Source: Coralloluteibacterium stylophorae (lineage in GTDB: Bacteria; Pseudomonadota; Gammaproteobacteria; Xanthomonadales; Xanthomonadaceae). From it: a stretch of 64,000 nt of DNA. The DNA lies in the NCBI RefSeq assembly GCF_018122625.2, contig NZ_JAGQFT020000002.1, positions 248,001 through 312,000 on the forward strand, in the 5' to 3' direction. The notes under the pieces were generated by a model that had not been told where the DNA came from, ran no database searches, and saw only the letters and a program-made list of their open reading frames with translations. Positions 43,065 through 52,894 of the stretch are shown here, piece after piece; positions within the stretch are counted from its first letter, which is position 1, and each line of letters begins with the position of its first letter. Made by a program: the position numbers and the translations under genes.

Positions 43065-43508
43065 ATGAGCGGACCGCGTCACCGCTTGCATGGCGGCTGT
43101 CGCTGCGGGCGCATGCAGGTGGTCTTCGCCACCGCGCAGGATCCCGGCGCGCTGCAGCCGCGCGCCTGCGACTGCTCGTTCTGCCGTGGGCACGGCGCGG
43201 CCTGGGTCTCGGACCCGGCCGGCGCGCTCGAGGTGACCGAAGTCGTGCCGGGCGCGCTGCGCGAGGTCCGCCAGGGGTCGGCTTCGGCGCGTTTCGTGCT
43301 GTGCGCGGACTGCGGCCTGCTGGTGTGCGTGCTGCTGGACGATGCCGATGGCGTCTTCGCCGCGGTGAACGCCTCCTGCCTGGCGGAGGCGGACCGTCTG
43401 CGGGTCGCACAGCCCGCGTCGCCGCAGACCCTGCCGGTGTCCGAGCGACGCGCGCGCTGGAAGGCGCTGTGGGTGCGCCAGGTGCGCGTGGTGCGCACAG
43501 CGGCATGA
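43065..43508 (+). CDS. GFA-family (CENP-V-like) zinc protein
   Basis: Small cytoplasmic protein of 147 aa in the glutathione-dependent formaldehyde-activating enzyme fold family. Zinc-binding cysteines appear as GGCRCGRMQ, CDCSFCRGHGA and CADCGLLV, the usual arrangement. Family members vary in function and glutathione chemistry is not certain here. Its stop overlaps the next start (ATGA), so the two genes are coupled. Confidence 0.85.
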   Translation: MSGPRHRLHGGCRCGRMQVVFATAQDPGALQPRACDCSFCRGHGAAWVSDPAGALEVTEVVPGALREVRQGSASARFVLCADCGLLVCVLLDDADGVFAAVNASCLAEADRLRVAQPASPQTLPVSERRARWKALWVRQVRVVRTAA

Positions 43509-44130: not shown

Positions 44131-45618
44131 ATGCCTGGACGGCCCCGATACCGGCACATGCCCCACGACTCCACTCCGCCGCCGCAGCGCATCGCCTGGA
44201 TCGACTGCCTGAAGGGCGTCGCCATCGCGCTGGTGGTGGTGCACCACGGGATCGAGCACCTGCTGTTCGCGCTCGGCATGGACAGCCGCGCGGTGGAGAT
44301 CCTCGACGCGCTCTTCGTGCGGTTCCGGATGGGGGCGTTCTTCCTGGCCTCGGGCATCCTCGCGGCGTCCGCGCTCGGGCGCGGGCTTCCGGATTTCCTC
44401 GACCGCAAGCTGGTGCCGCTGGCGTGGACGCTGGTGGTGTGGACGCTCGTCGGCAGCCTGTTCGGCGCCTGGGTCGCACCGCTGTACCGGGAGCAGGCGC
44501 TCCCGTCGCTCGCGGACGTCGTGGTGAACCCGCAGGGCAACCTGTGGTTCGTGCACGCGCTGATCGTCTTCAATGCCGTGTGCTACGCCGCGCTGCGGGC
44601 GCCGCGCGCCGTCGCGTCGCTGTCGGTGGTCGCCGCCGTGGTGCTCTACCTCGGCGTGCCGGACCTGCCGCCGGTGCTGTACCGGATCCTGGAGTACTAC
44701 CCGTTCTTCGCCGCCGGGGCCTTATTCGGGCACGGCATCGTCGAGTTCTTCCGCGTGCCGGCGCGGGTGTGGACGGCGCTGGCGGCGGGATCGGCGATGT
44801 TCGCGGCCGCGGCCGGCGCGGAGCTGGCCGGGGTGGACAGCGACGCGCTGGTCCTGGTCATGCGGGTGGCCGCGGTCGCCGCCGCCATCGCCTGCATCCG
44901 CCTGCTCACGCGGTGGCGGCCGGTCGCCACCGCGCTCGGCTACCTGGGCAGGAACAGCCTCTACATCTTCCTGCTGCACCAGTTCCTGATCGCGCTGATG
45001 CGGGCCGCCTACGAGGCGGGGTGGCCACTGCCCGGCTCGGACCTCGGCCTGCTCGCGACGGCGACGGCCGTGGCGCTGGGCGGCTCGCTGCTCCTGAAGT
45101 CGCTGTTGATGCGCGCGGGAGCGGGCTGGCTGTTCGCACCGCCGCCCGCGCTGCGCCGGCGCGGCCGCCACGCGGACGCGTCCCGCGCGGGCCGGCGTCG
45201 CGTCCGCGACCTGCGGCCCGCGGCGGTCGCCGCACTGCCCCTGCTGGCCGCGACGGGCGCCGCGGCCTGCCTAGCGGCGGCGCCGGACGCGCTCGCCATC
45301 CGCCTGCTGGGCGACCTCCCGCTCGGCAGCTTCGTGGCGCCGTTGGTGCCGTGCGGACTCGCAGGCGCCGCGGTGGTGCTGGCCACGCCGCGCGCGGCGC
45401 CGCGGCGGCTGTCGGTGGCCTCGCTGACCCTGGCGGCCGCATGGCTGCCGGTGTCGGTCGCATTGGCGGGCAACCTGGCGCTCCAGTTCCGCGGCTGGCG
45501 CGGCGCGGCGTGGCTGGGTTTCAGCCTGGCAGTGATGCTCGGCGCGCTGGCTGCGCTCGGCTGGACGCTGACGGCGGCGGCGCGCGCGCGTCATCGCCGC
45601 CGCGTCGCCCCGGCCTGA
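44131..45618 (+). CDS. Membrane acyltransferase 3 with extra C-terminal membrane domain
   Basis: Integral membrane acyltransferase of 495 aa. The N-terminal about 330 residues form an OatA/acyltransferase-3 domain: [52 protein letters not shown], and [20 protein letters not shown] basic linker ([16 protein letters not shown]) leads to a roughly 130-residue membrane domain that is a paralogue of the small protein at 43505. Such enzymes O-acylate sugars or surface polymers; the target here is unknown. Alternative start ATG 44158. The preceding 164-bp gap holds nothing I can identify. Confidence 0.85.
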
Positions 45619-45725: not shown

Positions 45726-46712
45726 ATGACGAGTCGGACGGGAACTGCGCACGCGCTGTGGATCGAGGCGGCCGGCCGGGTCGCGCTGCGCCGCGAGCGT
45801 CTTGCCGCGCCGCGTCAGGACGAGGTGGAAGTGCGGGCCCGCTTCGGCGCGATCAGCCGCGGCACGGAGGCGCTGGTGCTGGCCGGGCGCGTGCCGGAAT
45901 CCGAGCACGCGCGCATGCGCGCGCCGTTCCAGGAGGGCGACTTCCCGTTCCCGGTGAAGTACGGCTACGCCTGCGTGGGCGAGGTCGAGGCGGGGCCGGG
46001 GGCCCTGCGCGGGCGCACCGTGTTCTGCCTGCATCCGCACCAGGACCGCTTCGTGGTGCCGGCCGAACGCGTGGCCGTGGTGCCGGAGGCCGTGCCCGCC
46101 GCGCGCGCGGTGCTCGCGGCGAACATGGAGACCGCGCTCAACGTGGTGTGGGATGCCGGGATCGGTCCCGGCGACCGGGTGGCGGTGGTCGGCGCCGGCG
46201 TGGTCGGCGCGCTGGTGGCGCGGCTGGTGACGCGCATGCCCGGGACCGACTGCAGCCTGGTCGACATCGCGCCGGAGCGCGCCGGCCTCGCACGCGCGCT
46301 CGGCGCCGGCTTCGCCGATCCCGCGCATGCGCCGCGCGACTGCGACGTCGTCGTCCACGCCAGCGCCAGCGAGGCCGGGCTCGCCACCGCGATCGACTGC
46401 GCCGGCTTCGAGGCGCGCGTCGTCGAGGCGAGCTGGTACGGCGACGGCCGGGTCGCGGTGCCGCTCGGCGGCGCCTTCCACAGCCGACGCCTGCGGATCG
46501 TGGGTTCGCAGGTGGGGCATGTCCCGACGGCGCGCCGCGCGCGCTGGCCCTATGGTCGGCGCATGGCGGCGGCGCTGCGCCTGCTCGACGACCCGTGCCT
46601 CGACGCGCTGGTCTCCGGCGAGAGCGCCTTCGCCGGGCTCGCCGACGCCTATCCGCGCGTGCTCGCCGACCCTGCGACGCTGTGCCACCGCGTCGTCTAT
46701 CCCGGCGCCTGA
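45726..46712 (+). CDS. MDR-family dehydrogenase, BchC-like, lacking the usual catalytic Cys
   Basis: NAD(P)-dependent medium-chain dehydrogenase/reductase homologue of 328 aa. The N-terminal GroES-like half has [15 protein letters not shown] where typical zinc enzymes carry the catalytic Cys, and no structural-zinc four-Cys lobe. This resembles the BchC-type ISTGTE subgroup. The Rossmann motif is [26 protein letters not shown] site precedes the ATG. It opens the unusual cluster with a PTPS homologue 29 nt downstream, a glycosyltransferase and a methyltransferase. The substrate is unknown; oxidation of a ring-linked hydroxyl is possible. Confidence 0.82.
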
Positions 46713-46741
46713 TTCCACCCATCCGCAAGAGGAAGACCCGC

Positions 46742-47140
46742 ATGTTCGCCGTCGAAGTCCGCGACCACGTCATGATCGCCCACAGCCTGCCGGGGGAGGT
46801 GTTCGGGCCCGCCCAGGGCCTGCACGGCGCGACCTTCGTGGTCGACGCCGCGTTCTACGCCGAGGCGCTCGACGACGACGGGCTGGTGGTCGACATCGGC
46901 CTGGCGACGGCACTGCTGGCCGAGACGCTGGCGCCGCTCAACTACCAGAACCTCGACGCGCTGCCGCAGTTCGCCGGCCGCACCACGACCACCGAGTTCC
47001 TGGCCAGGCACATCTTCGACGCGCTGGCCGAGGGCATCCGCGCCGGCCGCCTCGGTGCCGGTGGCGCGCGCCTGGCGAAGCTGCGCGTGCAGCTGCACGA
47101 ATCGCACGTCGCACGCGCCTGGTACGAGGGCACGCTGTGA
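46742..47140 (+). CDS. Degenerate 6-pyruvoyltetrahydropterin synthase homologue
   Basis: T-fold protein of 132 aa aligned by eye with QueD/PTPS. The first zinc His is kept (IAHSL), as is a Glu near the end ([11 protein letters not shown]). Where QueD has C-G-R-L-H-G-H this protein has A-Q-G-L-H-G-A, so both the catalytic Cys and one zinc His are Ala. The catalytic Asp-His pair of L-D-H-H-Y is replaced by L-N-Y-Q-N. Classical PTPS or QueD chemistry is therefore unlikely. It may bind a pterin or catalyse a different step. Its stop overlaps the next gene's GTG start. Confidence 0.82.
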
Positions 47141-48186
47141 CGCAACGCGAGCTGGTGTTCGCGATCCCCGGCGACCTCGCCGCGCGGACCGGCGGCTACG
47201 GCTACGACCGACGCATGCTCGCCGAGCTCGAGGCGCTGGGCTGGCGCGTGCGCGTGCTGGGGCTCGGCGCCGGTTATCCGATGCCGTCGCCGGAGGAGGT
47301 GGCGGCGAGCGACGCCGCCTTCGCGGCCCTGCCCGACGGGGCGCGGGTGCTGGTGGACGGCCTCGCGTTCGGCGCGATGGATGCGCTCGCCGCACGCGAG
47401 GGCGGACGCCTGCGCCTGTGCGCCCTGGTCCACCATCCGCTGGCGCTGGAGACCGGCGTGGACGCCGCGCAGGCGGCAGAGCTGGCCGCGCGGGAACGCC
47501 GCGCGCTGGCGCGCGCGCGCGCGGTGATCGCGACCAGCCGCACCACCGCGGACGCGCTGGTGGCGCAGTATGGCGTCGACCTCGCCAGGCTGAGCGTGGT
47601 GCCGCCCGGCACCGAGCGGCCGTCGCGGCTCGCGCTGCGCGAGGCCCGCGTCGGCCGCGTGCGCATCGTCGCGGTCGGCTCGCTGATCCCGCGCAAGGGC
47701 TTCGACGTGCTGATCGCCGCGCTGGGCCTGCTGCATCCGCTGTCGTGGCAGCTGCGCATCGTCGGCGGCGAACGCGACGCGGCCACCGCCGCGGCCCTGC
47801 GCGGGCAGGTGCGGTCGCTGCACCTCGACGACCGCGTGCGCTTCGTCGGCGAGGTCGCCGACACCGCTCCGGAACTCGCCGATGCCGACGTGTTCGCGCT
47901 GCCGAGCCGCCACGAGGGCTACGGCATGGTGTTCGCCGAGGCCATGGCGCACGGCCTGCCGGTGGTCGCCTGCCGCGCCGGCGCGGTGCCGGAGGTCGTC
48001 CCGGACACCGCGGGGCTGCTGGTGCCGGTCGACGACGTGCAGGCGCTGGCCGATGCGCTGCGGCGCCTGATCGGCGATGCCGGCCTGCGCACCCGGCTAT
48101 CGGCCGGCGCGCTGCGTGCGGCTCGGGCGCTGCCGGGCTGGACCGAATCGGCGCGGGTGCTGGCGCGCGCGCTGGAGGCGGCGTGA
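47137..48186 (+). CDS. GT4-family glycosyltransferase
   Basis: Retaining GT-B glycosyltransferase of 349 aa. The C-terminal nucleotide-sugar domain shows [20 protein letters not shown], the donor-binding [20 protein letters not shown] (E-x7-E motif) and [20 protein letters not shown]. The N-terminal acceptor domain begins [23 protein letters not shown] start at 47137 overlaps the PTPS-homologue stop, and its own stop overlaps the methyltransferase GTG, so the three are translationally coupled. It probably glycosylates the product of the cluster rather than a cell-surface polymer (inference). Confidence 0.88.
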
Positions 48187-48974
48187 GCTTCTCCGCGCAC
48201 TGGCTGGAGCTGCGCGAACCGCTCGACCACGCCGCGCGCGATCCCGCGCTGCGCGCGGCTGCCGCCGCGCTGCTGCGCATGCCGCGCGTGGCGACGGTGG
48301 TCGATCTCGGCTGCGGCACCGGATCGAGCTTCCGGGCGCTTGCTCCACACGTCGACGCCGCGCAGGCGTGGCGGCTGGTCGACCACGACCCGGCGCTGAT
48401 CGCGATCGCACGGCGGCGCATCGGTGCCGCCGCGGCCGTCGAGGCGCACCCGCTCGACCTGCGCACGCTGGACGCGCTGCCGCTGGCCGGCGCCGACCTC
48501 GCCACCGCCTCGGCGCTGTTCGACCTGGTCGGCCGCGACTGGCTGCGCGGCTTCGTCGCCGCGTTGACGCAGGCGCGCGTGCCGCTGTACGCCGCCCTGA
48601 GCTACGACGGGCACATGCACTGGAGCCTGTCCGTGGCCGACGACGCGGCCGTCGTCGCCGCGTTCAACCGGCACCAGCGCGGCGACAAGGGCCTCGGGCC
48701 CGCGCTGGGGCCGGACGCCGCCGGCGCGCTGGCCGAAGCGCTCGCGGCGGCCGGCTATCGCGTCCTCCGCGCCCCGAGCCCGTGGCGGATCGACGCCGCG
48801 CACGCCGCGATGCAGCGCGAGCTGCTGCACGGCATCGCCACCGCGGCGCGCGAGACCGGCGACATCGCGGAAGCGCGCGTCGCCGGCTGGCTGCACGCAC
48901 GGCTGGAACGGGTCGGCAGCGGGACCTGCACGGTCGGCCACGAGGACGTGCTGGCGCTGCCTGATCGGGCCTGA
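48183..48974 (+). CDS. SAM-dependent class I methyltransferase
   Basis: Rossmann-fold methyltransferase of 263 aa. Motif I is VVDLGCGTGSSFRAL, the acidic ribose-binding residue follows in WRLVDHDP, and ATASALFDLVGRDW marks the post-motif region. It lacks further domains that would reveal the acceptor. GTG start overlaps the glycosyltransferase stop by four bases (GTGA). It is the last plus-strand gene of this group and is convergent with the reductase gene, 81 bp away. Confidence 0.86.
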   Translation: MSFSAHWLELREPLDHAARDPALRAAAAALLRMPRVATVVDLGCGTGSSFRALAPHVDAAQAWRLVDHDPALIAIARRRIGAAAAVEAHPLDLRTLDALPLAGADLATASALFDLVGRDWLRGFVAALTQARVPLYAALSYDGHMHWSLSVADDAAVVAAFNRHQRGDKGLGPALGPDAAGALAEALAAAGYRVLRAPSPWRIDAAHAAMQRELLHGIATAARETGDIAEARVAGWLHARLERVGSGTCTVGHEDVLALPDRA

Positions 48975-49055
48975 GCTGTCGAGGTTGAAGGCACTCCTGC
49001 GGGAGGCGCCGATGCCCGCAGCCGCGACCGCCGCCGTGCCGGGCGCCGCTGCCCC

Positions 49056-49832
49056 TCAACCCCGCAGGTCGCAGTCGAACACGATGTCGCCGTCCAGCTC
49101 CCAGGCGGTGGCGCAGGGCCGGCGCGCCTGCGCCAAGCGCTCGATCGGCGGCAGCGCGATGCCGCTGGGGCCGCAGCCGATGATCAGCGGCGCGATCGCC
49201 ACGTGCAGGCGGTCGATGCGGTCGGCCTCGATGAAGGCGGCGATGGTGCAGGCGCCGCCTTCCACGAGCACCCGGTGCAGCCCGCGCGCGGCCAGCGCAT
49301 CGACGATGTCGCCCGGTTCGAAGCGCCCTTCGCGCAGCGGCAGCGCCAGGCAGTCCGCCCCGGGCACCGGCGGCGGGACATCGGTGCCGTGCACGATCAG
49401 CAGCGGCGCCGCGCCGTCGTGCAACAGGCCCGCCTGCCGCGGGATGCGTCCGCGCGGGTCGAGCACCACCCGCACCGGATTGCGGCCCTCGACCAGGCGC
49501 ACGGTCAGGCGCGGGTCGTCGGCGATCACCGTGCCGACGCCGACGATCACCGCGTCCACCAGCGCACGGCAGCGGTGCAGGTGGCGCAGCCCGCCGGGCC
49601 CGGAGATGTCGCGCGCGTCGCCGCTGGGCGTGGCGACGCGACCGTCCAGCGACTGCCCGACCTGGGCCAGCACGAAGCGCGGCGCCGCGAGCAGGGGCGC
49701 GTAGAGGCCGGCAGCGGCCGCGCGCAGCGGCGCCGGGCCGCCGCGTTGCGCGAGCATGGCATGCCAATGCTCGGCGTCGGGAGCGCCGCGGCGCAGGCGC
49801 TGCGGCTCGGCGAGATCGAAGGCCTCGGTCAT
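49056..49832 (-). CDS. RibD-C-type reductase (pyrimidine/dihydrofolate reductase fold)
   Basis: Reductase of 258 aa matching the C-terminal half of RibD: FVLAQVGQSLDGRVATPSGD, VGVGTVIADDPRLTVRL, NPVRVVLDPRGRIP and RVLVEGGACTIAAFIEADR. There is no N-terminal cytidine-deaminase-like domain, which a bifunctional RibD would need. About 50 N-terminal residues precede the domain. ATG 49832 has GGAG upstream; ATG 49877 is an alternative. It is divergent from the GTP cyclohydrolase II-like gene. It could reduce a ribosylaminopyrimidine made by that enzyme. Confidence 0.87.
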   Translation of the reverse strand: MTEAFDLAEPQRLRRGAPDAEHWHAMLAQRGGPAPLRAAAAGLYAPLLAAPRFVLAQVGQSLDGRVATPSGDARDISGPGGLRHLHRCRALVDAVIVGVGTVIADDPRLTVRLVEGRNPVRVVLDPRGRIPRQAGLLHDGAAPLLIVHGTDVPPPVPGADCLALPLREGRFEPGDIVDALAARGLHRVLVEGGACTIAAFIEADRIDRLHVAIAPLIIGCGPSGIALPPIERLAQARRPCATAWELDGDIVFDCDLRG

Positions 49833-50055
49833 GGCGCGCTCCGCGAAGCGATTGAGGATCCGCACGCGCGCACCCATATGGGCGACGGCGGTACGTCGCG
49901 AGTGTGGGCATGCGCCATGTCCACGGCGCGTCGCCGTTCGCGAGCCCTTCATCGGGGCGTTCCTAGGTTCCGGCGGGACCGGTGGTCTGCTGCCGTCGCG
50001 CATGCCGCGTCCCGCGTCGTCCCGCCGCGCTCGTCCACGTATCAGGATCCGCACC

Positions 50056-51177
50056 ATGCCGAGCAGTCCCCAACCCGGTCACGCATCCGCCTTCGGCAAC
50101 GCCGCCGCCATCCGCTGCGAGCGCGCCGCCTCCGAGATGCGCTCGGGACGCCCGGTCCTGATCGACGACGGCCACGGCCGCCGCATCGCCGCGCTGGCCC
50201 TGGACGGTGCGACGGCCGCGACCTACGCCGCCTTCGCCCAGGCCGCGGGAGGCTCGCAGCAGTTGTTCCTGACGCCGACGCGCGCGGCCGTGTTCGGTGT
50301 CGATGCGCCCGAGGGCGCGCTGGTGACGCTCGGCGGGATGGACTTCGACGCGATCAACCGCCTCGGCTACCTGCGCGATGCGCCAGCGCCGGCCGCGTGG
50401 GAGGCCGGCGGAACCCTGCACGTGGCCGCGGTGCGGGTGGCGCGGCTGGGCCTGTTGCTGCCGGCGATCGTGGTGGCCGACGTCGTTCCGGAGAATCCGG
50501 CCTTCGACGGCTGCGGAACGCTGACGCTGGAGGACCTGCAGGAGGGCGAGGACACCGCCGCGCGCGACTTCGAGCTGGTCACCCGCTCGCCGGTGCCGTT
50601 GCGCGACATCGGCATGACCCAGTTCGCCGTGTTCCGCGGTGGCCTCGCGCAGCGCGACCAGGTCGCGGTGATCGTCGGCTGCCCCGACCTCGACGACGTG
50701 GTGCCGGTGCGCGTGCATTCCTCCTGCCTCACCGGCGACCTGTTCGGTTCGCTCAAGTGCGATTGCGGCGACCAGCTCCGGCACGGCCTGAAGGCGCTCA
50801 AGGAGCGCGGCGGCGGCGTCCTGCTCTACCTCGACCAGGAGGGCCGCGGCACCGGCATCGCCGCCAAGATGCGCGCCTACGGCTACCAGCACGACGGCCT
50901 CGACACCATCGACGCCGACGCCCAGCTCGGCTTCGGCTCCGACGAGCGCCGCTACGAGACCGCGGTGGCGATGCTGCGCGGGCTCGGCGTGCGCCGGGTC
51001 GAGCTGCTGACCAACAATCCGGCCAAGGTCATGCACCTGCGTTCGGCCGGGCTGGACGTGGTCAGGCGCACGCCGGTGACCGGCGAGATCACCGCCGAGA
51101 ACGAGGGCTACCTGCGCACCAAGGCTGCGCGCGCCGGGCACATGCTCGACATCGACGCGCTGATCGCGCGCAGCTGA
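50056..51177 (+). CDS. GTP cyclohydrolase II-like protein with degenerate RibB-like N-terminus
   Basis: Protein of 373 aa. The C-terminal half (about 200-373) is a complete-looking GTP cyclohydrolase II: RVHSSCLTGDLFGSLKCDCG supplies the zinc cysteines and YLDQEGRGTGIAAKMRAYG the catalytic loop. The N-terminal about 165 residues resemble DHBP synthase in outline (MRSGRPVLIDDGHGRR, LTLEDLQ) but lack the DDEDREnEGD-type active site. It would open the GTP ring to a diaminopyrimidine phosphate. Followed after 12 nt by the phosphatidyltransferase gene. No FMN riboswitch was recognised in the 223-bp upstream gap, which holds only the palindrome CCCATATGGG (49873-49882). Confidence 0.88.
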   Translation: MPSSPQPGHASAFGNAAAIRCERAASEMRSGRPVLIDDGHGRRIAALALDGATAATYAAFAQAAGGSQQLFLTPTRAAVFGVDAPEGALVTLGGMDFDAINRLGYLRDAPAPAAWEAGGTLHVAAVRVARLGLLLPAIVVADVVPENPAFDGCGTLTLEDLQEGEDTAARDFELVTRSPVPLRDIGMTQFAVFRGGLAQRDQVAVIVGCPDLDDVVPVRVHSSCLTGDLFGSLKCDCGDQLRHGLKALKERGGGVLLYLDQEGRGTGIAAKMRAYGYQHDGLDTIDADAQLGFGSDERRYETAVAMLRGLGVRRVELLTNNPAKVMHLRSAGLDVVRRTPVTGEITAENEGYLRTKAARAGHMLDIDALIARS

Positions 51178-51189
51178 CGCGGGCGGATC

Positions 51190-51972
51190 GTGGACGTCCC
51201 GCTGTCCCGCATGCCGCAGGACCGCGATGCGGGACGGCAGCGGCACGAGGCGCGATCGGCGTTCGCGGTCGGTGCGCTGCTGCTGGCGGCGCTGGCCTGG
51301 ATGCTGTGCCGCGCCGGTGCGTCCGCCGAGGCCGTGCTGCCCGCGGCGGCAGCGCTCTACGCGCTGGTCGCGGCGATCGCGCTGCGCTGCATGGCCTCCT
51401 CGCATCCCCACGGGCGCTTCGGCGCGGCCAATGCGGTGACCCTGCTGCGTGCGGTGCTGACCTGCCTGGTCGGCGGCCTGCTGGTGGATGCGCCGCTGCT
51501 CGCCGGCAGTCGCGCCTGGCAGTGGGGGGCGGTGGCGATCGTGGTCGTGGCGCTCGCGCTGGACGGCATCGACGGCTGGCTCGCGCGGCGGCAGGGCCTG
51601 GCGTCGCGGTTCGGGGCGCGCTTCGACCTCGAGATCGACGCCCTGCTGATCCTGCTGCTGTCGGTGGCGGCCTGGCGGCTGGACCGGGCCGGCGCCTGGG
51701 TGATCGGCGCCGGCCTGATGCGCTACGCCTTCATCGGGGCGGGGCGGATCTGGCCGTGGCTGGCCGCGCCGCTGCCGCCCTCGCTGCGGCGCAAGGCCGT
51801 GTGCGCGGTGCAGGGCGGGGTGCTGTGCGGACTGCTGTCGCCGTGGTTCGTGCCCCCGGCGAGCCAGTTCCTGGCGGCGGCGGCACTGGCGGCGCTGTGC
51901 TGCTCCTTCCTGGGCGACGTGCTGTGGCTGCATCGCAGCCGCCCGCGGCATCCGCTGCCCGTGCCGGGCTGA
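51190..51972 (+). CDS. CDP-alcohol phosphatidyltransferase family protein
   Basis: Integral membrane enzyme of 260 aa, about six hydrophobic segments. The full family motif D-x2-DG-x2-AR-x8-G-x3-D-x3-D is present as LDGIDGWLARRQGLASRFG followed by ARFDLEID, including all metal and nucleotide ligands. It would transfer a phosphoalcohol from a CDP-linked donor to a hydroxyl acceptor in the membrane. GTG start at 51190, 12 nt after the cyclohydrolase-like gene, so probably co-transcribed. Its 3' part overlaps the opposite-strand flippase reading frame by about 240 bp. Confidence 0.87.
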   Translation: MDVPLSRMPQDRDAGRQRHEARSAFAVGALLLAALAWMLCRAGASAEAVLPAAAALYALVAAIALRCMASSHPHGRFGAANAVTLLRAVLTCLVGGLLVDAPLLAGSRAWQWGAVAIVVVALALDGIDGWLARRQGLASRFGARFDLEIDALLILLLSVAAWRLDRAGAWVIGAGLMRYAFIGAGRIWPWLAAPLPPSLRRKAVCAVQGGVLCGLLSPWFVPPASQFLAAAALAALCCSFLGDVLWLHRSRPRHPLPVPG

Positions 51973-52894
51973 ACGCGACCGCGAGCCCGGGCAGCGCGCC
52001 GACGAGGTTGACCAGCCCGTACAGGATGGAGGCGGCGACGCCATGGGCGGCCGGCAGGCCCACGAGCGGCCACAGCGCGGCGGCGGCCGCCTCGCGCACG
52101 CCCCAGCCGCCCACCGACACCGGCACCAGCATCGCCAGCAGGGCCAGCGGCACCGCGGTGAGCCAGGCCATGGGCGGCAGCGGCGTGCCGACGGCGCAGG
52201 CGCACAGCGCGAAGGCGGCGATGTAGCCGCCGACGATGGCGAGACTGCCGGCGCCCTGCCACAGCCAGGCGCGCCCTGCGAACCAGGTGCGGACGACATC
52301 GCCGCGCAGCCCGTGCAGCGCGGCCTGCAGGCGGCGCGGTCCGCGCCGCGCGAGCAGGGCCACCGTCGCCGCGCCGGCTGCCAGGGCCGCGGCGACGGCC
52401 ATCGCGGTCCACAGCGCCACGCGCGGCGGCGCGCCGCCCGCCGCCAGCGGCCACGCCGCCAGGCCGATCGCGACCACCGTCAGCAGCGCGACCTGCCCGG
52501 CCAGGCGCTCCAGCACGACCGCCCGCACCGCCGCCCGCATCCGTCCCGGGCGCGCGCGCCCGCTGCGCCACGCGCGCACCGCATCGCCGCCGACGCCGCC
52601 GGGCACGCTCTGGTTGAGCAGGGTGGCCAGGTAGTACTCGGCGATCGCCGTGCGCCGCGGCATCGCCTGGCCGAGGCGCCGCGCGGTGAAGCGCCAGCGC
52701 TGCGCCGACAGCACGACCTGGGCCTGCACCGCCAGGAGCGCCGCCAGCAGCCAGCCCGGATCCGCCCCGGCGAGCGCGGCCCAGGCGCGCCCGGGATCGG
52801 CGAAGGCCAGTGCGAGCACGAGCAGGCCGGCCGGCAGGACCAGGCGCCAGGCGCGCAGGGACGACGGGCGCGGAGGCGGTGCGTCGGGAGACAT
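51731..52894 (-). CDS. Flippase-like membrane protein (lysylphosphatidylglycerol synthase TM family)
   Basis: Polytopic membrane protein of 387 aa, six to eight hydrophobic segments. Family motifs are EYYLATLLNQSVPGGVGGDA, ERLAGQVALLTVVAI and LVPVSVGGWGVREAAAAAL. Proteins of this group are proposed lipid or lipid-linked-sugar flippases. The conserved part ends near residue 305. The remaining roughly 80 residues are Ala/Pro/Arg-rich, run antisense through the phosphatidyltransferase gene, and may not be functional. ATG 52894 follows GGGAG-like sequence on the minus strand. Context links it to the upstream phosphatidyltransferase. Confidence 0.82.
   Translation of the reverse strand: MSPDAPPPRPSSLRAWRLVLPAGLLVLALAFADPGRAWAALAGADPGWLLAALLAVQAQVVLSAQRWRFTARRLGQAMPRRTAIAEYYLATLLNQSVPGGVGGDAVRAWRSGRARPGRMRAAVRAVVLERLAGQVALLTVVAIGLAAWPLAAGGAPPRVALWTAMAVAAALAAGAATVALLARRGPRRLQAALHGLRGDVVRTWFAGRAWLWQGAGSLAIVGGYIAAFALCACAVGTPLPPMAWLTAVPLALLAMLVPVSVGGWGVREAAAAALWPLVGLPAAHGVAASILYGLVNLVGALPGLAVAFSPARAADAAGGCDAATARRPGRSSTAPPVPPPPGTGSPGARTTATAVRTAPRPAPRTRPCAAARAAAARPATARSAPPR

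Follow-up and report, generated by a model that had tools for sequence, protein, structure and literature searches.

PTPS-IV proteins are common, and the structure of one of them, SCO6650 of Streptomyces coelicolor (PDB 3d7j), has been solved since 2008; no function is established for them in the literature examined. The 2008 crystallography paper on SCO6650 reportedly found no zinc and no PTPS activity. In the available part of the sequence network study of 2017 that named the group (PMC5445326), proteins with the motif FGPAQ make up PTPS-IV, cluster-node 62, with 561 sequences, and genes of PF00925 (GTP cyclohydrolase II, GCHII) and PF01872 (RibD) lie near PTPS-IV genes. A single sentence in the available part of PMC5041015 links PTPS-IV to F420 synthesis, citing unpublished work. 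The DNA analyzed here, called the window throughout, is a stretch of 64,000 nucleotides (contig C2, positions 248,001–312,000) of the 4.0 Mb genome of Coralloluteibacterium stylophorae, in which eight adjacent genes encode a BchC-like dehydrogenase (ADH), a PTPS-IV protein, a GT4 glycosyltransferase, a class I methyltransferase (MT), a RibD_C-type reductase, a GCHII (RibA), a CDP-alcohol phosphatidyltransferase (CDP-AP) and a flippase-like membrane protein. The chances are judged even that the eight genes represent one copy of an uncharacterised but conserved biosynthetic cluster centred on PTPS-IV, the predicted enzymes of which would convert GTP to a ribityl- or pterin-like, glycosylated and methylated compound that is tethered or exported at the membrane. 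The starting point is what was observed directly, namely gene content, conservation, intact GCHII, RibD_C and CDP-AP signature residues, and loss of the QueD zinc and catalytic residues from PTPS-IV.

The window shares the PTPS-IV signature, the fold and both neighbor families, GCHII (PF00925) and RibD_C (PF01872), with the group as it appears in the available part of PMC5445326. The PTPS protein (132 residues) matched SCO6650 with E 1e-44, and its predicted model (pLDDT 93) was aligned to 3d7j by structure search with TM 0.95, a root-mean-square deviation of 1.1 Å and 61% identity. Residues were tallied at 22 positions in 129 family members, window included. The FGPAQ motif is F21-G22-P23-A24-Q25, with F and G in 129/129 members and Q25 in 124/129, and H14, F21, G22, H28, G29, T31, D51, D72, E85 and E120 are invariant. 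The QueD/PTPS-I signature (CxxxHGH, zinc His, Asp/His pair) was not found in the cluster PTPS, which scored 35.8 bits against a QueD cut-off of 89: the position of the third zinc His holds Ala in 128 members and Thr in one (HGA versus HGH), Asp of the "DH" pair is kept in 2/129 and His in none (N67/Y68 in the window), and the Cys position is occupied by Ala24, which is invariant in 84 aligned sequences. The homologue is thus degenerate, as the preliminary description of this DNA had proposed. A canonical CxxxHGH-type QueD is encoded elsewhere in the host genome, on contig C11.

Recurrence of the gene set was determined in two collections. A scan of genome contigs with PTPS found 438 relatives, and use of the 80 best among them gives a bias to close relatives; nearly all of these are titled Alphaproteobacteria, and one is a Xanthomonas at 86%. 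Adding three Rhizobiaceae plasmid loci gave 83 loci, at which, within the available flanks, the genes were counted as PTPS 83, MT 81, ADH 80, GT4 79, RibD 53, RibA 41 (tblastn with the window RibA and RibD for these two), CDP-AP 28 and flippase 17. At the 71 loci with full flanks, from which two loci with PTPS outside a cluster (L096, L099) were left out, the counts were ADH 71, PTPS 71 (by selection), MT 71, GT4 69, RibD 47, RibA 38, CDP-AP 28 and flippase 17, together with cytochrome b561 at 41 and MdoH at 35. Three RibA loci with the cluster out of view (L005, L006, L008) stand outside the PTPS counts; the plasmid of L006 carries the cluster about 22 kb from its RibA. The second, less biased collection was taken from genomes drawn evenly from the family, class and phylum, in which PTPS-IV occurs in 3/297, 17/369 and 27/398 genomes, respectively (own genome included each time). 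After leaving out two of the 26 non-own phylum matches (G995, G1035), 40 loci were obtained, five of which (L157, L160, L164, L167, L171) end at contig ends. These contained PTPS 40 (by selection), ADH 39, GT4 39, MT 37, RibD 33, CDP-AP 23, flippase 19, RibA 16, MdoH 11 and creatininase 8; in the 25 that belong to the window's class, CDP-AP was found at 22, RibD at 21 and flippase at 18.

The fuller set (ADH, PTPS-IV, GT4, MT, RibD, CDP-AP, flippase and often GCHII) is present in Alpha- and Gammaproteobacteria and on two actinobacterial plasmids (11 of 20 plasmid records with PTPS examined), which carry CDP-AP, ADH, PTPS, GT4, MT and flippase plus either GCHII (L093) or RibD (L098). Three genomes of 1.0–1.1 Mb that are 94–99% complete (G478, G685, G590; loci L162–L164) keep CDP-AP, ADH, PTPS, GT4, MT, flippase and RibD at 20–41% identity; that genomes this small retain a seven-gene core suggests that its function is important to streamlined or host-bound bacteria. 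Co-occurrence of the families had been put forward as a check in the preliminary description; they do recur together across classes and phyla, in all three locus counts and on plasmids, and by these neighborhood counts the arrangement is far beyond chance. Recurrent extra neighbors are cytochrome b561, MdoH, a "sulfatase" and an FkbM methyltransferase, and, mainly in Rhodobacterales, an inositol-monophosphatase-family gene; none of the five is in the window. Profile search of the "sulfatase" at 1e-5 was negative with both Pfam and NCBIfam, as was a PDB sequence search at E 1, and its likeness to LtaS/OpgB is by eye only.

CDP-AP and cluster-type MdoH are ALTERNATIVES in cluster loci and genomes. 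The 71 full-flank loci divide into 32 with MdoH only, 25 with CDP-AP only, 3 with both and 11 with neither (Fisher p 1e-7, uncorrected for kinship). Whole-genome searches were performed on 29 genomes, comprising the host genome (G000) and 28 that were chosen by the authors by locus type from 41, and gave CDP-AP only in 13, MdoH only in 15, both in one (G323) and neither in none. Cluster-type CDP-AP was detected in 14/29 genomes at 236 bits or more (next best 45), and cluster-type MdoH, with the MdoH of L094 as query, in 16/29 at 441–655 bits (others at most 306). The seven genomes in which neither gene lies by PTPS are the informative ones: each has one of the two elsewhere, six CDP-AP and one MdoH, and the frequency of CDP-AP in these (6/7) differs from that in MdoH-type genomes (1/15) with p 0.0006, uncorrected for kinship. 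The whole-genome searches show that the alternation is more than gene position. The L094 MdoH passes NCBIfam MdoH cut-offs (480 vs 419 and 474 vs 328 bits), yet the cluster-type copies score apart from other OpgH/MdoH proteins and stand in for CDP-AP. The alternation points to a last step at the membrane.

The cluster GCHII scored 575 bits with NCBIfam PRK08815 (cut-off 464). Its residues C224, C235, C237, Y275, D296 and R298, all of which recur in 93% or more of 42 sequences, align with the three zinc Cys ligands and the catalytic Tyr105, Asp126 and Arg128 of E. coli RibA, and by alignment the putative zinc-binding and catalytic positions are thus all retained. The RibD_C protein contains the conserved motifs SLDG, DDPxLTVR and EGG (S61–G64, D105, P107, L109, V111, R112, E191–G193), and its best PDB match is 6p8c, named 2,5-diamino-6-ribosylamino-4(3H)-pyrimidinone 5′-phosphate reductase. 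Riboflavin synthesis with reduction before deamination is the archaeal and fungal order, and the cluster shares with it a GCHII and a stand-alone RibD_C reductase without deaminase. It differs from riboflavin synthesis in that no ribB, ribE, ribH or deaminase gene was found among its eight genes and no FMN riboswitch was found by Rfam scan of 44–54 kb of the window (no family at E 0.5; in seven cluster loci, none at gathering score). Host contig C7 carries ribE, a ribB-type gene, ribH, a second RibD_C protein (open frame of 440 residues) and an FMN riboswitch (95.5 bits) upstream of ribE. A separate riboflavin set, as the preliminary description had expected, is therefore present, but the cluster GCHII does not appear to be a spare copy. 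The whole host genome holds only two PF00925 matches, and the other, the C7 ribB-type protein, has a GCHII-like tail without the zinc Cys and QEGR motif, the pattern named RibBX in the available part of PMC10012899; the cluster GCHII is therefore probably the only working one of the genome and probably also serves riboflavin synthesis. That the RibA/RibD-like genes might be the only riboflavin genes of the genome had been named as a point of refutation, and it holds in part, RibA being seemingly the sole intact GCHII.

Creatininase-family genes were found at 8 of the 40 evenly drawn loci and at L093, but not in the window cluster, and occur with both Tyr- and Met-type GCHII. Their presence is intelligible because, in the available part of PMC9478397, a creatininase-family enzyme deformylates the formyl intermediate of this route in Sinorhizobium (BrbF-type). 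On the S. fungicidicus plasmid (L093:14479–15138), the GCHII has Met at the catalytic Tyr position and a creatininase-family gene adjoins it; the product of the latter matches ArfB weakly, at 37 bits against a cut-off of 180. On the basis of work on SCO6655, creatininase was predicted to pair with Met-type GCHII only. This rule fails, as the nine creatininase loci comprise 5 Tyr, 1 Met and 3 with no recognisable GCHII motif.

The dehydrogenase scored 54.9 bits with NCBIfam bchC (TIGR01202), far below the cut-off of 291, and is therefore similar to BchC, not BchC. Among the residues shared by 93% or more of 81 relatives there is no Cys, the conserved S44RGTE48 and K78YGY81 occupy the usual ADH zinc-motif positions, and by sequence the enzyme is probably zinc-free. 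The methyltransferase model gave generic class I matches only (best 3mgg). CDP-AP has the complete catalytic motif DxxDGxxAR-x8-Gx3Dx3D, shared with the CDP-alcohol phosphatidyltransferases PgsA, PssA and PIP synthase, yet matches no NCBIfam equivalog at its cut-off.

In the pathway proposed from these families, GCHII would open GTP to 2,5-diamino-6-ribosylaminopyrimidinone 5′-phosphate, and, with no deamination beforehand, the RibD_C enzyme would reduce the ribose to a ribityl chain, which would leave the guanine-like 2-amino-4-oxo edge in place. Glu is the pterin anchor of QueD/PTPS-type enzymes, and PTPS-IV may hold this edge through its invariant Glu120 and help to close or modify a pterin-like ring by a chemistry unlike that of QueD. 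The dehydrogenase would oxidize a side-chain alcohol, GT4 would add a sugar and MT a methyl group, CDP-AP would join a phosphorylated alcohol to a phospholipid, and the LPG_TM protein would move the lipid-linked product outward; in other lineages, the cluster-type MdoH, a membrane glucan synthase, would replace CDP-AP. The earlier suggestion of a product tethered to or moved across the membrane is fitting, as CDP-AP and the flippase-like protein are common cluster members; the glycosylated, methylated pyrimidine or pteridine also suggested there is a candidate product inferred from enzyme families. A more specific and speculative version, considered doubtful, is that a GTP-derived pterin- or flavin-like redox group is displayed on the outer face of the inner membrane, carried in some lineages by a phospholipid (CDP-AP and LPG_TM flippase, often with the membrane "sulfatase" that may be LtaS/OpgB-like) and in others by an MdoH-made glucan, with cytochrome b561 (41/71 loci, none in the window) as electron partner.

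Because RibA seems to be the sole intact GCHII of the genome, it was considered whether RibA and RibD serve riboflavin synthesis and merely lie beside a separate glycolipid or sugar-modification cluster (ADH, PTPS, GT4, MT, CDP-AP, flippase). The distribution of RibA also speaks for this: window-type RibA (at least 360 bits) occurs in 59/297 family genomes, of which only the host and G185 hold PTPS-IV, and 10/10 non-cluster RibA loci examined had no other cluster gene within about 1.5 kb on each side. (In 223/297 family genomes, no match to the window RibA was found at E 1e-20.) However, the cluster RibD_C is a second copy and lies by PTPS in 47/71 and 33/40 loci, GCHII and/or RibD sit with the cluster on plasmids of Rhizobiaceae, Methylosinus, Palleronia, Thiodictyon, Streptomyces and Microbacterium, and the cluster is without an FMN riboswitch, so this explanation is regarded as unlikely. 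A soluble secreted metabolite or pigment, such as a glycosylated, methylated pterin or lumazine with the membrane proteins used for export only, is regarded as somewhat less likely again. Bacterial pterin glycosides exist (cyanopterin, limipterin), and GT4 and MT are near-universal in the loci; but the CDP-AP motif is intact, CDP-AP is present at 22/25 loci from the window's class, in the three genomes of about 1 Mb and on both cluster plasmids from actinobacteria, and enzymes of this type are no exporters.

Two further explanations invoke known pathways. That the cluster makes a precursor of F420, after the sentence in the available part of PMC5041015, is very improbable: CofE (PF01996) was found in 4/50 cluster genomes and not found in 46/50, including the host, with three control archaea positive, and F420 therefore leaves the cluster unexplained in most of them. 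Provided that F420 synthesis requires CofE, this explanation is refuted for the 46 genomes; an F420-like cofactor made otherwise is possible. Least probable, and barely credible, is a queuosine or tetrahydrobiopterin enzyme set, to which the PTPS fold, RefSeq names (e.g. 6-carboxytetrahydropterin synthase) and GO terms that place cluster members under queuosine synthesis would point; the canonical QueD lies elsewhere in the genome, and the cluster PTPS falls below the QueD cut-off and is without the Cys and the third zinc His.

Several points weigh against a single PTPS-IV pathway from GTP to the membrane. Every chemical step is assigned by family, and the order of reduction before deamination stands on weak ground because the RibD_C protein passes no NCBIfam RibD cut-off (134/150, 111/186 and 99/156 bits). 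RibA is missing in 33/71 and RibD in 24/71 full-flank loci, and the entry steps may therefore be shared ones or be supplied from another place. Absence of CDP-AP from MdoH lineages means that a phospholipid anchor cannot be general. As for the alternation, 7 of the 14 CDP-AP genomes are positive by construction, their genes being rows of the query alignment, and one of the 14 matches (G324) has an in-frame TGA; on the four-protein tree described below, the alternation takes 4 parsimony changes against a shuffled mean of 33, and such close tracking of the tree implies few independent switches, one of which, at L162–L164, may be a long-branch artefact. Finally, two Streptomyces plasmids (L096, L099) carry PTPS-IV without other cluster genes in view. 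Close to these lone genes are BTAD-regulator and sigma-factor genes, accompanied by cupin and MBL-fold genes, a possible second PTPS-IV context.

The eight open reading frames (ORFs) at 45,726–52,894 (Table 1) were confirmed by ORF check and Pfam/NCBIfam profile search, and the families, overlaps and gaps given in the preliminary description were all borne out. Pfam bit scores were PTPS 75, GT4 124, class I MT 35, RibD_C 140, GTP_cyclohydro2 169, CDP-OH_P_transf 63 and LPG_synthase_TM 142. ADH, PTPS, GT4 and MT form a tight row in the same direction, with a gap of 29 nt between ADH and PTPS and overlaps of 4 nt at PTPS/GT4 and GT4/MT; RibD_C is oriented back toward this row, GCHII and CDP-AP (gap 12 nt) read away from RibD_C, and the flippase-like gene is convergent with CDP-AP and overlaps it.

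Table 1. Genes of the PTPS-IV cluster, in window positions
Feature	Position	Strand	Basis or remark
BchC-like MDR dehydrogenase (ADH), probably zinc-free	45726..46712	+	family search, conserved residues
PTPS-IV T-fold protein, FGPAQ/HGAT signature, SCO6650 (3d7j) relative	46742..47140	+	
GT4 glycosyltransferase, GTG start	47137..48186	+	4-nt overlap with PTPS
Class I SAM-dependent methyltransferase (MT)	48183..48974	+	4-nt overlap with GT4
RibD_C-type reductase, no deaminase domain	49056..49832	-	Pfam, PDB match 6p8c
GTP cyclohydrolase II (GCHII, RibA), PRK08815 type, N-terminal extension	50056..51177	+	zinc Cys and catalytic Tyr/Asp/Arg positions kept
CDP-alcohol phosphatidyltransferase (CDP-AP), intact motif	51190..51972	+	
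LPG_synthase_TM/TIGR00374 flippase-like membrane protein	51731..52894	-	

The flippase-like ORF has 387 residues to its first stop, 59 more than the longest and 74 more than the median of 17 relatives; its LPG_synthase_TM match ends at residue 303 (about 51,985), and the ORF continues into the CDP-AP gene. At 51,731–51,972 there is no stop where relatives end, and 242 nt are antisense to the CDP-AP gene; a lost stop, a frameshift or an assembly error is possible. An upstream acyltransferase gene (44,131–45,618) and a GFA gene (43,065–43,508) were rejected as members, as neither gave a match of at least 55 bits in 89 loci. A phage collection searched with PTPS gave no match.

The origin of the window copy was examined on a four-protein tree of 115 leaves, from which L166 (same genome as L009) was left out and on which class labels were assigned by the author or taken from the "same class" or "same phylum" grouping. 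The window and Xanthomonas copies form a pair (support 1.0) within a clade of 83 (support 1.0), the inner clade of 56 having support 0.83. The other members of the 83-clade are labelled Alphaproteobacteria, except L072. This contig, titled Oceanobacillus, has a cluster of the alphaproteobacterial type; mislabelling or contamination of the record is possible. G011 (L165), the third copy found in the family, is separate and splits off at the base of the proteobacterial copies. Alphaproteobacteria are the probable source of the window copy, transfer being the simplest account of its placement and of the presence of the cluster in only 3/297 family genomes.

Already known, from the available part of PMC5445326, are the PTPS-IV subfamily and its GCHII and RibD neighbors. 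The earlier statement that no named pathway has this set thus holds for the product and not for the subfamily with these two neighbors. To the two neighbor families named by that source, the present analysis adds ADH, GT4, MT, CDP-AP, flippase and the MdoH alternative. Open-access literature, searched mostly by listings and with few subscription journals, gave no description of the complete gene set, of how widely it is spread, of its retention in genomes of about 1 Mb or of the CDP-AP/MdoH alternation, and these appear to be new. The enzymes are borrowed from known pathways, and a product of an entirely new category is conceivable. With the gene set and the CDP-AP/MdoH alternation in hand, an "unknown PTPS" becomes part of a pathway that can be tested and that has its proposed end-point at the membrane. 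If the carrier-bound reading were true, the product would be a new class of membrane-anchored cofactor and a new way to place a redox or light-absorbing group outside the cytoplasm.

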